Positions 52,234 to 56,704 of a DNA stretch of 64,000 nt are shown piece after piece. Numbering within the stretch: position 1 is the first letter of the stretch; each line of letters starts with the position of its first letter. The notes under the pieces were generated by a model. The model had not been told where the DNA came from. It worked only from the letters and a program-made list of their open reading frames with translations, and did no database searches. The DNA comes from Methanomassiliicoccales archaeon. Its GTDB lineage: Archaea > Thermoplasmatota > Thermoplasmata > Methanomassiliicoccales > UBA472. A program made the translations under genes and the position numbers. The stretch covers positions 1 to 64,000 of the forward strand of contig DASXVU010000030.1 of assembly GCA_036504055.1 (NCBI GenBank), given 5' to 3'.

Positions 52234-52968
52234 ATGGAGAAGAAAATCTCGATAAGTAAATCATTATTTGGAATGTTTGCTGTGGGAATTGTGGTGCTGA
52301 TGATATTAGCACCATCAGTCGAGGCGATATCCAACACATATACACCATCATATGGAAGATATGGAGCTACAGGGTATGGCGATTCATGGAAGAACGGCTA
52401 TTGGTCTGGCCATTTTGATGATTGCAGCCCTTACTTCAATATCGATACTGGAAATGGAGGATTGAAGTTTGATGCTATTGATTTCACACCATCACCTAAT
52501 AATAATATCGTTGGGGAATTCAAGGAATATTTTGGTATGAACATCAATCATTCCCCGCGATCCTCCTCATATTGTCGCGTTGATTTCAATTGGCATACAA
52601 TATTCGCTATGCAGGGTTCTATCAATGGATATACGGTTCCTTTGTGCAATCTTTACATGGAAGTATATGCAACCGCTAGAGTATGGGATATTACCGGGGG
52701 ATTCTGGGCCTGCAATGAAGTATGGTTGACAGTATTCAGCCATAACCAAAATGGTGTAAGCAGTTGGTATTCTGGACAGGACATTACCTTCTCAGTATCA
52801 TGCTATGCATCGATGCAAGTGGGTCATGTTTATCGGTTAGTGACTAGCGTAGGGGGCTATTGTACGGGTTTTATACCGTCCTGGACTGATAACCAATTGG
52901 ATTTTTATCTAGATATCAATAGCCAGCCAAACATGGCCCATTTGAACTATGTGAAGGTGACATATTGA
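52234..52968 (+). CDS. Secreted protein, low GC, unknown
   Basis: 244 residues with a signal peptide (MFAVGIVVLMILAPSVEA, cleaved near residue 30). The mature part is rich in Tyr, Ser, Asn and Trp with a few Cys (for example DDCSPYF, SYCRVDF), and has no membrane helix at the end, so it is probably secreted or surface-bound. Family not recognised. AT content is well above the neighbouring genes, which hints at recent acquisition. Followed by a strong hairpin terminator. Confidence 0.65.
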   Translation: MEKKISISKSLFGMFAVGIVVLMILAPSVEAISNTYTPSYGRYGATGYGDSWKNGYWSGHFDDCSPYFNIDTGNGGLKFDAIDFTPSPNNNIVGEFKEYFGMNINHSPRSSSYCRVDFNWHTIFAMQGSINGYTVPLCNLYMEVYATARVWDITGGFWACNEVWLTVFSHNQNGVSSWYSGQDITFSVSCYASMQVGHVYRLVTSVGGYCTGFIPSWTDNQLDFYLDINSQPNMAHLNYVKVTY

Positions 52969-53466: not shown

Positions 53467-54393
53467 TTACTGGACATAGTCCAGCCAAGATTCGTACATC
53501 GGGTCCTTCCCGCTCACCGCGGCGCTGAAGGCCTGCTGCAGCTGCTTGGTGATCGGTCCGGCCTTGCCCGTTCCGATCGAGATGTCGTCGATGTAGCTGA
53601 TCGGGGTGATCTCCGCCGCCGTGCCGGTCATGAAGACCTCATCGGCCAGATACAGCTCGGACCGGGTCATCGACTTCTCGATGATATCATAGCCCAGGTT
53701 CTTGGCTATGGTGGAGACCGAGTCCCGGGTTATGCCCTCCAGAATCCCTGCCGACAACGGCGGGGTGTACAGCACACCCTTCTTGACCATGAAGATGTTC
53801 TCCCCGGTCCCTTCGGCCACTTCCCCGTCGGCGTTGAGCATCAGTGCCTCATCGAATCCCCGGTGGACCGCCTCCAGCTTTGCAACCACCGAGTTGATGT
53901 AGTTACCGCAGATCTTGGCGTTGAGCATGGCGGACCGGTTACCAGGTTTCTCCCATGTCGACGTGATGATCTTGGCACCGGACTCAAGCTGCTCCTTGCC
54001 CATGTAGGCGCCCATGTGGGTGGCGACTATGGAGACCTTGGTCGGCATCTTGGTCGGGTTAAGTCCGATCTTACCCTCCGGGTTCGCCCCATAGTACGCC
54101 AACGGTCTGAGATAGTCATCCTCCGGGTTACTGGATCGGACGACCGCCTTGGACGCCTCAGATAGCTCATCCATCGTGAACGGGATGTTCAGCCAGATGA
54201 CCTTCGCGGAGTTGTAGAACCGGACCATGTGCTCCTGCAGACGGAATATCGCCTTTCCCTTGGGCGTGTTGTAGATACGGATGCCCTCGAACACACCGCC
54301 CCCGTAGTGCAAGCCATGGGTCAGGATATGCACGTTGGCATCCTCCCAGTTAACCAGCTTTCCATCCATCCAGATCTTTGATTTGTTTGTCAT
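53467..54393 (-). CDS. ilvE: Branched-chain amino-acid aminotransferase
   Basis: 308 residues, fold-type IV PLP transaminase. VHILTHGLHYGGGVFEGIRIY opens it; the PLP-binding Lys is in SAMLNAKICGNYINSVVAK; DEALMLNADGEVAEGTGENIFMVK is the signature stretch. It makes Val, Leu and Ile. GGAGGG lies 6 bases before the ATG. It ends an operon with ilvN, under the leader-peptide element upstream. Confidence 0.95.
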   Translation of the reverse strand: MTNKSKIWMDGKLVNWEDANVHILTHGLHYGGGVFEGIRIYNTPKGKAIFRLQEHMVRFYNSAKVIWLNIPFTMDELSEASKAVVRSSNPEDDYLRPLAYYGANPEGKIGLNPTKMPTKVSIVATHMGAYMGKEQLESGAKIITSTWEKPGNRSAMLNAKICGNYINSVVAKLEAVHRGFDEALMLNADGEVAEGTGENIFMVKKGVLYTPPLSAGILEGITRDSVSTIAKNLGYDIIEKSMTRSELYLADEVFMTGTAAEITPISYIDDISIGTGKAGPITKQLQQAFSAAVSGKDPMYESWLDYVQ

Positions 54394-54443: not shown

Positions 54444-54806
54444 TCAGATAGCGTTGACCGCTTTTATGAACTTGTCAGGTTTGGCGTTGTCGACCATCGA
54501 ATCGACCTCTTCGATGCTGCCGATCAACCGTACCCTTCCGAAGGAGTTGCTCGCCAACGCGTACGATTCCTGCCTGGTCTCATCGACCAGCTCACATTGG
54601 ATTATATCGTGAAGCCGTGAGAGCGCCTCGACCGACCTCTCGGCCTGGACCTTGTCCACGATGGTCAGGACCACCCGCGCCTTTCCCGGGATCTCACACT
54701 TGCCTACCACGATCGTTTCGACGTTGATCTTCCTCCGGGTGAACTCCTGGAGTATTCGCTGCATCACGCCGAACTCGTCGTTGACGACCATTGACATTAC
54801 TTGCAT
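54444..54806 (-). CDS. ilvN: Acetolactate synthase small (ACT-domain) subunit
   Basis: 120 residues from the ATG at 54806. An ACT domain QVMSMVVNDEFGVMQRILQEFTRRKINVETIVVGKCEIPGKARVVLTI, then a C-terminal helix and strand. It would sense Val and regulate the large subunit IlvB, which is not in the window. GGTGA Shine-Dalgarno lies in the end of the preceding ORF, one base from its stop. Longer than a single ACT domain but shorter than two-ACT IlvN (about 160). Confidence 0.87.
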   Translation of the reverse strand: MQVMSMVVNDEFGVMQRILQEFTRRKINVETIVVGKCEIPGKARVVLTIVDKVQAERSVEALSRLHDIIQCELVDETRQESYALASNSFGRVRLIGSIEEVDSMVDNAKPDKFIKAVNAI

Positions 54807-54807
54807 C

Positions 54808-55068
54808 TTACTCACCCTTCCCTTTCTTTTTCGAACTCGACGATGTCGATGAAACCTCATAGTTGCGAACCGAATGGTTCTTCTTGATGGGGTGATAGTA
54901 GCCCTCGTCGCTTTTGCCGTTATCCGACCCCATGGGATACTTCGGGGTCGACAGCCAGGACATCGAGAACTGCCCGTCGTCATCGTTCATTACGTGTTTC
55001 GGTTTCTTCCTCTCGCCACCTGCGACCATGCCGGAGATGAGGAACTTGAGCATGACTTTTGATACCAT
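54808..55068 (-). CDS. 86-residue hydrophilic protein in the ilv operon, unknown
   Basis: Starts at ATG 55068 and stops one base before ilvN, so it is positioned for coupled translation. The N-terminus is hydrophobic/Met-rich (VSKVMLKFLISGMVAGG); the remainder is Lys/Ser/Asp-rich (for example STSSSSKKKGKGE). I do not recognise it. It occupies the place where ilvB is normally found. It could be a spurious ORF, but no other frame in this stretch is more gene-like and its stop/SD arrangement fits ilvN. Confidence 0.45.
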   Translation of the reverse strand: MVSKVMLKFLISGMVAGGERKKPKHVMNDDDGQFSMSWLSTPKYPMGSDNGKSDEGYYHPIKKNHSVRNYEVSSTSSSSKKKGKGE

Positions 55069-55093
55069 AGGCTAAACCTTCTAGGCGATAATT

Positions 55094-55120
55094 AGGGACC
55101 GACCCTCAGGAGAGTCTCCC
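55094..55120 (-). promoter_or_regulatory. Candidate attenuator hairpins between leader ORF and ilv operon
   Basis: Between the leader stop and the operon the minus strand has two overlapping small hairpins that cannot form together. One is GACTCT-CCTG-AGGGTC (55116-55101); the other is AGGG-TCGGT-CCCT (55106-55094). GACCC in leader codons 6-8 could also pair with GGGTC here. No T-run follows, so if it acts it may do so by RNA structure near the next start rather than by classic termination. Confidence 0.4.
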
Positions 55121-55123
55121 TTT

Positions 55124-55189
55124 TCAGATACCCAATACCAGCTGCTCGACCACTACGATAAGTACTGGGGTCTGAGCAACGCTGAGCAT
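55124..55189 (-). CDS. Branched-chain-rich leader peptide of the ilv operon (ilvL-like)
   Basis: 21-codon ORF, ATG at 55189, stop TGA at 55126-55124. Twelve of 21 residues are branched-chain: 6 Val, 4 Leu, 2 Ile. The core reads PVLIVVV and the end LVLGI. Three of the six Val codons are GTA. A TATA box TTAAATATA (55218-55210) is centred 25 bp upstream of the ATG, so the mRNA should start at this codon, a leaderless leader ORF. Downstream lie alternative hairpins and the 86aa-ilvN-ilvE genes. The analogy is to enterobacterial ilvL; attenuation in archaea by this route is inference. Confidence 0.7.
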   Translation of the reverse strand: MLSVAQTPVLIVVVEQLVLGI

Positions 55190-55209
55190 CGTCGATGGAT
55201 TGTAAGGAT

Positions 55210-55218
55210 TATATTTAA
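55210..55218 (-). promoter_or_regulatory. Promoter of the ilv leader and operon
   Basis: Minus-strand TTAAATATA in an AT-rich context, the only clear TATA box upstream of the operon, 25 bp before the leader ATG and about 145 bp before the 86-residue ORF. Confidence 0.6.
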
Positions 55219-55322: not shown

Positions 55323-55483
55323 ATACATAAATATAGCCAGTATATTGATATTATTAGAGTATAACCTATTGTAAATATACCGAATAATTCTATTGATTTT
55401 TGGGGAATTTGGAGGATAGAATGCTATTCTAAGTCAGTCTAACGCATGCATCAAGACCTACCATGCTCCCTGGAAGGAGTAAT

Positions 55484-56704
55484 ATGTTCAATAGAGGCAA
55501 AGAAAAAAAATTGAATCGTATAATATGTCTAGGAGTATTGATACTGATGGTGTCGCCCCTATTATTGACGGCACAGAACACTCAGGCAGTCGGATACAGT
55601 GTGACGTTTAATAATAAGAACGACCTCAGTCCGGCCACTTTAAACATCTCATGGTCGAAGCCCTCTGGCACACCCAACTTCTATGTCGTTCTTTATGACA
55701 GTCATAGAAATGTGCTTGGTCAATGGACCGCGAGCGGTTTGAGCGGGACAATACAATATGATATGAGATTATCCCATGTATCGGGTTGGTGTCAAGTCAG
55801 ACTGTTCGATCCCTATTACAATCTGTATGCAACCGACATGATGAAAACTGGATTTGTCGTATATTCTTGGAGTTCATTTCCCCAAGCCAATCTGAATCCG
55901 AACACAAATAGGGTTAGTACGGTGGCCAATGCGATGACTGCAAACGATCCCTGCCTTTTGTCGATTTCTGCACAAGTAAGAGGGTTCCAGCCAACGTGGG
56001 ATGGACGTCCAATGCTCGACACCGAGATTGTCACTTATTGGAAAGACTTTAGTTATCAGAGTATTTACGACAAACAGGATCTCAAGGAAATTAAGGTCTA
56101 TGTCAACAAATTGGCATCGTGGAATGCTAACGAAGGCTGGGGCAGCGTATTATATGGAAGTGCGTCAGGATATTCGCAATCCTATGCTGACATGACTTAT
56201 GCCAATACCAATGTATACGCGGCCGCGGTCACACCAAATTCGTATTTTGGTGAGCTAGGGAATTTCGAACCCGGATACTACGCAGGTGTTCATCCTGGGA
56301 ATGATGCGTTTCAAGCCCTTGATGGTACAGTGAAGGTGTGTTATCCTAATGGACCCCCATTCTCTGAAAGCTTCATCGTCAATGGAGGTCAAGATGACAC
56401 CGGATCCCTTGAAAAATGGCGTGATAATGGTAATCCAGGAATCCCCAATGGGGGACATTTTGTCCAATCATCGTTCACAAACAATGCTTTGGCTTGGTGC
56501 AGATGGAATAGTTTCCAATTGATGCCTGAGGATAGAAGCAATGAAGCGATTGGATTCAATCATGCCTTACTAGGGATGGGGTCGCATGTTGGTTATGTGT
56601 TTGAAATTTGGGCAGAGGCAAAATACTGGAATTTCGTCGGAGGCAGTCCAAATACTCCTTCGACTCTTTCAACACCCCATATCTATCTCTGTGTAACCCC
56701 GTAA
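55484..56704 (+). CDS. Secreted protein, low GC, unknown
   Basis: 406 residues from the ATG at 55484. A signal peptide (IICLGVLILMVSPLLLTAQNTQA) is followed by a beta-rich mature part with many Asn, Ser, Tyr and Trp. The first part (SVTFNNKNDLSPATLNISWSKPSG) looks like a small Ig/fibronectin-like strand pattern. No membrane helix near the C-terminus. Like the 52234 gene it is AT-rich, secreted and ends at a strong terminator; the two are not obviously homologous but are alike in style. Shine-Dalgarno AAGGAG lies 5 bases before the ATG. Confidence 0.65.
   Translation: MFNRGKEKKLNRIICLGVLILMVSPLLLTAQNTQAVGYSVTFNNKNDLSPATLNISWSKPSGTPNFYVVLYDSHRNVLGQWTASGLSGTIQYDMRLSHVSGWCQVRLFDPYYNLYATDMMKTGFVVYSWSSFPQANLNPNTNRVSTVANAMTANDPCLLSISAQVRGFQPTWDGRPMLDTEIVTYWKDFSYQSIYDKQDLKEIKVYVNKLASWNANEGWGSVLYGSASGYSQSYADMTYANTNVYAAAVTPNSYFGELGNFEPGYYAGVHPGNDAFQALDGTVKVCYPNGPPFSESFIVNGGQDDTGSLEKWRDNGNPGIPNGGHFVQSSFTNNALAWCRWNSFQLMPEDRSNEAIGFNHALLGMGSHVGYVFEIWAEAKYWNFVGGSPNTPSTLSTPHIYLCVTP

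Follow-up and report, generated by a model that had tools for sequence, protein, structure and literature searches.

The 64,000-nucleotide stretch of DNA analysed here (the window), which we judge from named relatives to lie in the order Methanomassiliicoccales, carries on its minus strand a short open reading frame followed by a gene for an 86-residue protein, ilvN and ilvE, in the order that the original prediction had given (Table 1). The short reading frame, at 55189-55124 (-), translates over 21 codons into MLSVAQTPVLIVVVEQLVLGI and stops at TGA. Leucine, isoleucine and valine make up 12 of the 21 residues, including the run V-L-I-V-V-V and a C-terminal end of Leu-Val-Leu-Gly-Ile directly before the stop codon, and GTA codons stand at positions 9, 12 and 18. 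These coordinates, this composition and the three GTA codons had all been called correctly, as had the TATA box, TTAAATATA at 55218-55210 (-), the centre of which lies 25 bp 5′ of the leader ATG. Because the box is centred at that distance, transcription is predicted to begin at the ATG or within a few nucleotides of it, that is, to yield a leaderless transcript.

Table 1. Positions of the promoter, leader, RNA stems and following genes in the window
Feature	Position	Strand	Basis or remark
TATA box TTAAATATA	55210..55218	-	sequence; box position consistent across leaders
Leader ORF MLSVAQTPVLIVVVEQLVLGI, 21 codons	55124..55189	-	sequence; kept in 20/20 readable family genomes
S1 5′ arm GTTGCTC, codons 4-6	55174..55180	-	pairs with 55147-55141 in the ORF fold
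S1 3′ arm GAGCAGC, codons 15-17	55141..55147	-	ORF fold
S2 hairpin AGGGAGACTCTCCTGAGGGTCGGTCCCT, -12.2 kcal/mol, starts 2 nt past the leader stop	55094..55121	-	
Linker from S2 to next gene, Shine-Dalgarno-like AGAAGG at 55082-55077	55069..55093	-	sequence
86-aa ORF, first gene after the leader, conserved small protein, function unassigned	54808..55068	-	
ilvN-like ACT-domain protein, 120 aa, acetolactate synthase small subunit-like	54444..54806	-	Pfam ACT_AHAS_ss
ilvE, branched-chain aminotransferase	53467..54393	-	NCBIfam TIGR01122

The identities of the genes behind the leader are of unequal firmness. The ilvE product matches TIGR01122 at 402 bits (E 1.4e-120; cut-off 245.55). The ilvN-like protein matches ACT_AHAS_ss (E 3.9e-13) and, at only 120 aa, reaches 39.1 bits against TIGR00119, under the cut-off of 56.9 for a full acetolactate synthase small subunit. 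Profile searches of the 86-aa ORF returned no Pfam or NCBIfam match; tblastn finds its homologues at the same place across the window's family, where it holds the slot taken by ilvB in the operons of outgroups (L028, L031). On the opposite strand the operon is flanked by two ORFs without a Pfam match, at 55463-56704 (+) and 52234-52968 (+), whose N-termini resemble signal peptides; in some relatives, L022 among them, the leader is instead directly preceded by an amino-acid ABC transporter.

Comparison across genomes shows that the leader is not peculiar to this locus. A short ORF with a TATA box at the same place and distance precedes ilvN in all 20 genomes of the window's family with readable upstream sequence, for example as MGALSIRTDIVLVQRVLGI, MSSPAAWGIVLSGAVSLQVLVI and MCSAAPRSVIVVYVSGQLVI. 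In two relatives with the gene order ilvB-ilvN-ilvE (L028, L031) the leader is located before ilvB, and within the window's family the ilvB genes carry leaders of their own that start with GTG, such as VSNNSTNAIVVLRLGVVVVI and VRTHITCSGRLDVLVGTVIVVLG. In the genome from which the window comes, two ilvB genes stand in tandem, each behind a leader of its own (VSSTTCQNAVLLLRVDAVLLVL and VSGITCETGVLILRVSVVMTVI), in addition to the leader in the window; these tandem loci are L106 and L121 on contig C16, and each of their leaders has a post-stop hairpin. Altogether we collected 72 leaders, 58 of them from the window's order, that represent at least seven family-level groups and several orders of the class Thermoplasmata, and all precede ilvN or ilvB. 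The original prediction had asked whether relatives keep the Val/Leu/Ile richness along with a TATA box at a fixed distance, and both recur in the 72 leaders, the independent ilvB leaders included. Taken together, these comparisons strongly support a branched-chain leader peptide before the ilv genes on what is predicted to be a leaderless archaeal transcript.

Within the order, the family-level groups f1, f3, f5 and f6 have ilvB leaders. In f2, 19 of 20 sampled ilvB regions (L241-L260) have none, and the sole leader among the sampled loci sits at a second ilvB copy, L255. By our own reading of its named loci, f2 contains the Methanomethylophilaceae, and ilvB leaders thus appear to have been mostly lost there. 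Outside the order but in the same class, leaders are present in groups f8, f24 and f13 (for example MLESAGQGKLVPILVVLGVLVDLRILRP and MARSAYSKELAILGLLLGVLVVLRIESP), and none were found before ilvB in groups f22 and f27 or at the one ilvB inspected from another class of the phylum (L281). Neither direct inspection nor a combined scan for TATA box, ORF and hairpin found a leader at leuA and trpE loci, and the combined scan found none at ilvD and hisG loci. At L122, the second ilvB of genome G009, a leader-like end (PVVLSVVV*) and S2 are present with no ATG, GTG or TTG at the expected distance, so this leader may have decayed or may use another start codon. Because the leaders recur before several genes and seem mostly lost in one gut-dwelling family, they can be tested by comparison.

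The shared anatomy of the leaders is specific in frame, in length and in position. All 72 are open frames of 19–30 codons, with a Leu/Ile/Val content of 0.44 in frame (the two remaining frames have 0.19 and 0.15), and these residues are most regular near the end: counted back from the stop codon, they occupy codon -3 in 93% of leaders, -4 in 82%, -10 in 79% and -9 in 74%. In the 57 leaders for which a TATA box was recognised, it starts at -27 to -36 from the start codon, with a mode of -31. The post-stop hairpin S2 starts at -1 to +3 nt relative to the stop codon's end in the 58 leaders of the order and within about 4 nt of the stop codon over all 72. Between TATA box and start codon, the N-type promoters (e.g., L002, L010 and L016) have a conserved ATACA element. 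When 1.19 Mb were scanned on both strands for a TATA box, an ORF of 12–38 codons and a post-stop hairpin of at most -9 kcal/mol, 43 matches emerged: 38 are leaders rich in Leu/Ile/Val at ilvN or ilvB, and a further two (L037, L053) also precede ilvB. A chance origin can be ruled out by this near-specificity of the combined scan and by the recurrence of the arrangement in 72 leaders.

It is worth considering whether the conserved entity might be a structured RNA or a protein-binding site, somewhat like a riboswitch, within which the ORF is incidental. Features of this kind are indeed present: S2 is conserved in the order together with a VATYG motif, found no more than 14 nt 3′ of S2 in 38 of 72 leaders versus 5.2 ± 2.3 in shuffled linkers, and the leader is constrained at the nucleotide level. 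In leaders of the order the motif often reads CATTGT or GATTGT and stands 1–4 nt after S2; its equivalent in the window is TATCG. However, an incidental ORF would sit poorly with an open frame, lengths that are multiples of three, a Leu/Ile/Val composition specific to one frame and a start codon at a fixed distance from the TATA box. Nor did any Rfam covariance model reach its gathering score in the 14 loci searched, the best matches of the window being to unrelated snoRNAs (E 3.9), and we regard this explanation as highly improbable.

Almost as little credence attaches to the converse possibility, that the leader ORF encodes a functional small protein acting in trans, such as a micro-subunit or an inhibitor, and exerts no regulation in cis. 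The peptide is well conserved within genus g7 (IVLVQRVLGI), as such a protein would be. Yet across groups both the sequence and the length of the leader drift, and nothing but the richness in Leu/Ile/Val, the position of the end and the RNA stems is retained; different leaders stand before ilvN and ilvB in one genome, and the position of S2 is tied to the stop codon. The silent sites also speak against it: in g7, the share of comparisons with a difference at four-fold sites is 7.7% in the second half of the leader and 40% in ilvN, and the nucleotides of the leader are therefore under a constraint beyond that on the peptide.

Two stems were considered in the RNA: S1, formed between the 5′ and 3′ halves of the ORF, and S2, the hairpin after the stop codon. 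S2 is present in all 72 leaders. Compared with dinucleotide shuffles, the 36 nt after the stop have a mean folding z of -2.68, with control windows at 0.05; the signal is weaker in f8, f13 and f24 (-0.7 to -1.0), and S2 of the window taken alone is moderately unusual (z -1.5). For the ORF fold, synonymous redraws that preserve the peptide gave a weakly positive result (mean z about -0.7). The hairpins that had been proposed to follow the stop codon as mutually exclusive alternatives were not borne out: the window has one long hairpin, at 55121-55094, and the alternative GGAG-ACT-CTCC is weaker and not conserved.

Since short bulged stems misalign in MAFFT and RNAalifold, and RNAalifold on MAFFT alignments was uninformative for them, coevolution was assessed by comparing the duplex energy of each arm with its own partner and with partners swapped between families. 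For S1 the own partner was better in 10 of 10 family groups (mean z -1.66), and the same was true of S2 in 10 of 10 groups (mean z -1.60), its arms being taken in fixed windows and not picked by folding. Compensatory equivalents of S1 can also be seen by eye, such as GCTGCCC/GGGCAGC in L013, ACCGC/GCGGT in L006 and GCGCTG/CAGCGC in L002. Eight other pairings, including those resembling an antiterminator and those that would mask a Shine-Dalgarno sequence, behaved like random partners (mean z -0.12 to +0.33), and a version of the comparison confined to the window's family agreed; among the pairings that scored in this way were the 3′ half of the ORF with the 5′ arm of S2 (mean z 0.23, no coevolution) and the 5′ half of the ORF with the linker. 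Hence, of the leader-peptide reading in the original prediction, the leader before ilv genes, on an mRNA predicted to be leaderless, stands by comparison, whereas the switch proposed with it does not, as only S1 and S2 coevolve.

This result bears directly on the suggestion, made in that prediction, of a classical transcription attenuator of the trp/ilv type with antiterminator and intrinsic terminator hairpins. Such a device would present, as the leaders do, a leader peptide with stems 1:2 and 3:4 immediately upstream of biosynthetic genes, but a coevolving 2:3 pairing is missing, S1 and S2 do not overlap and are therefore not mutually exclusive, and a U-run of at least five after S2 is absent in 71 of 72 leaders. 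Within 14 nt after S2 the longest T-run is 1–3 in 70 of the 72, four in one and five in one. We accordingly hold a classical attenuator to be very unlikely. With no antiterminator pairing and, except in one leader, no such U-run, the leaders have no recognised expression platform.

A better case, although still an unlikely one, can be made for Shine-Dalgarno masking, in which the 3′ arm of S2 (CCTC/CCCC) would act as an anti-Shine-Dalgarno sequence that is either locked in S2 or paired with a downstream GAGG, depending on the position of the ribosome on the leader. In nearly all leaders of the order the 5′ arm of S2 is purine-rich and the 3′ arm pyrimidine-rich, the bottom pairs of S2 are an almost invariant GAGG:CCTC in B-type leaders, and in most leaders S2 lies 25–34 nt before the next start codon, all of which fits masking. 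Against it, the 3′ arm of S2 does not coevolve with the linker (mean z 0.14 over families), and the Shine-Dalgarno sequence of group f6, AAGGTGAT, is a poor match to that arm. Furthermore, the predicted cost of opening the next ribosome-binding site is 7.0 kcal/mol in the free RNA and 7.5 kcal/mol with a ribosome at the stop codon (mean of 48), and between ribosome positions this predicted cost shifts on average by at most about 0.5 kcal/mol, so that no ribosome-dependent masking is predicted.

The reading that we consider likely is a cis-acting leader peptide attenuator of the branched-chain genes, in which the ribosome would sense charged Val-, Leu- and Ile-tRNA and S2 would serve as the switch. 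The promoter would start transcription at the first codon of the leader, and a ribosome would initiate directly on the leaderless 5′ end; its speed over the Val/Leu/Ile codons, with clusters at about -10/-9 and -4/-3, would then report the charging of the three tRNAs. S1 would be fully formed only without a ribosome on the leader, a ribosome stalled at the terminal hungry codons would remove S1 and bring its leading edge next to S2, and a ribosome reaching the stop codon would melt the base of S2. Ribosome position would in this way set the state of S2, and S2 would in turn decide the expression of what follows, which is 86aa-ilvN-ilvE in the window and ilvB at other loci; a scarcity of branched-chain amino acids would be expected to lift repression, a sign that is taken from physiology. 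What the sequences themselves show is the conserved ORF, the placement of its codons, the position of the promoter and the stems S1 and S2; we infer the translation of the leader, the stalling, S2 as effector, the sign of the switch and the level at which it acts.

Folding with the ribosome footprint masked gives this scheme some shape. In these predictions both S1 and S2 are formed when no ribosome is present, S1 is lost and S2 has a pair probability of 0.81 with a ribosome at codon -4, and the pair probability of S2 falls to 0.04 with a ribosome at the stop codon. Since S2 is intact in the hungry state with the footprint used, the sign of the switch is not obvious: with that footprint S2 would be intact on starvation and would be an ON signal, and ribosomes pausing mainly at codons -2/-1 would instead melt S2 and make it an OFF signal. 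Given the flat opening cost and the lack of U-runs in all but one leader, we favour an action of S2 on RNA polymerase, for example by governing whether the termination factor FttA gains access, or on the stability of the transcript, over Shine-Dalgarno masking. The mutual exclusion of the ribosome and aCPSF1/FttA at the archaeal RNA polymerase has been discussed (PMC8116511).

It is informative to set these leaders beside known systems in which a leader ORF governs the genes behind it. Peptide-based attenuation is a textbook bacterial mechanism that relies on close coupling of transcription and translation. The enterobacterial ilvL, ilvB leader and leuL attenuators use a Shine-Dalgarno sequence, a 2:3 antiterminator and a U-tract terminator, none of which was detected in the archaeal leaders; what is common to both is a leader peptide of cognate codons directly before the cognate operon and a stem 1:2 in the leader. 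The macrolide-induced erm translational attenuators mask the Shine-Dalgarno sequence of the next gene, and they too have a leader ORF and hairpins before the regulated gene, but no ribosome-dependent masking is predicted for the archaeal leaders. Leader peptides of the TnaC type block the access of Rho. In common with these, the relevant position of the ribosome would be at the end of the leader, beside RNA that would load a termination factor; unlike them, the archaeal leaders have no arrest-peptide motif and no defined FttA site. The candidate for the factor would be aCPSF1/FttA, which has been discussed as a Rho-like factor of archaea (PMC8116511).

The nearest described system is the ilvBNC attenuator of the bacterium Corynebacterium glutamicum, with the IlvL peptide MTIIRLVVVTARRLP (PMC11857589, which cites Morbach et al. 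2000). Its transcript is leaderless, with a start site 1 nt from the ATG, and its leader of 15 codons lies in a 292-nt leader region that forms three hairpins, among them an antiterminator overlapping an intrinsic terminator, with the control codons in the middle of the leader (PMC11857589). A Val/Leu/Ile leader peptide before acetolactate synthase genes and a first hairpin over the 5′ region of the leader are common to both systems, and the archaeal transcripts are predicted to be leaderless as well. In contrast, the two stems of the archaeal leaders do not overlap, their control codons come last in the ORF, and their hairpin at the stop codon lacks a U-run.

No leader-peptide attenuation in archaea was found in the literature searched, which comprised open-licence papers, or in Rfam. 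From their sequences, the archaeal leaders look like a version of the bacterial sensing of amino-acid shortage by a slowed ribosome. On balance, we lean towards the view that they constitute the first amino-acid attenuator regulon of the ribosome-sensing kind in Archaea, and that this regulon is ancestral to much of the Thermoplasmata and present at two or three acetolactate synthase loci per genome, with a new kind of platform that would consist of a single hairpin at the stop codon and would dispense with antiterminator, U-tract and Shine-Dalgarno masking. If this is true, a conserved set of leaders on leaderless mRNAs would mean that archaea sense amino acids through the speed of the ribosome, and one can imagine the leaders as a natural reporter of archaeal transcription-translation coupling and possibly of FttA-dependent termination.

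One further observation concerns trpE, which in the window's family is seemingly itself leaderless (L158-L172). Its TATA box lies within a near-palindrome (in L158, AATGATTAAATATAATCATT), possibly an operator that overlaps the promoter.
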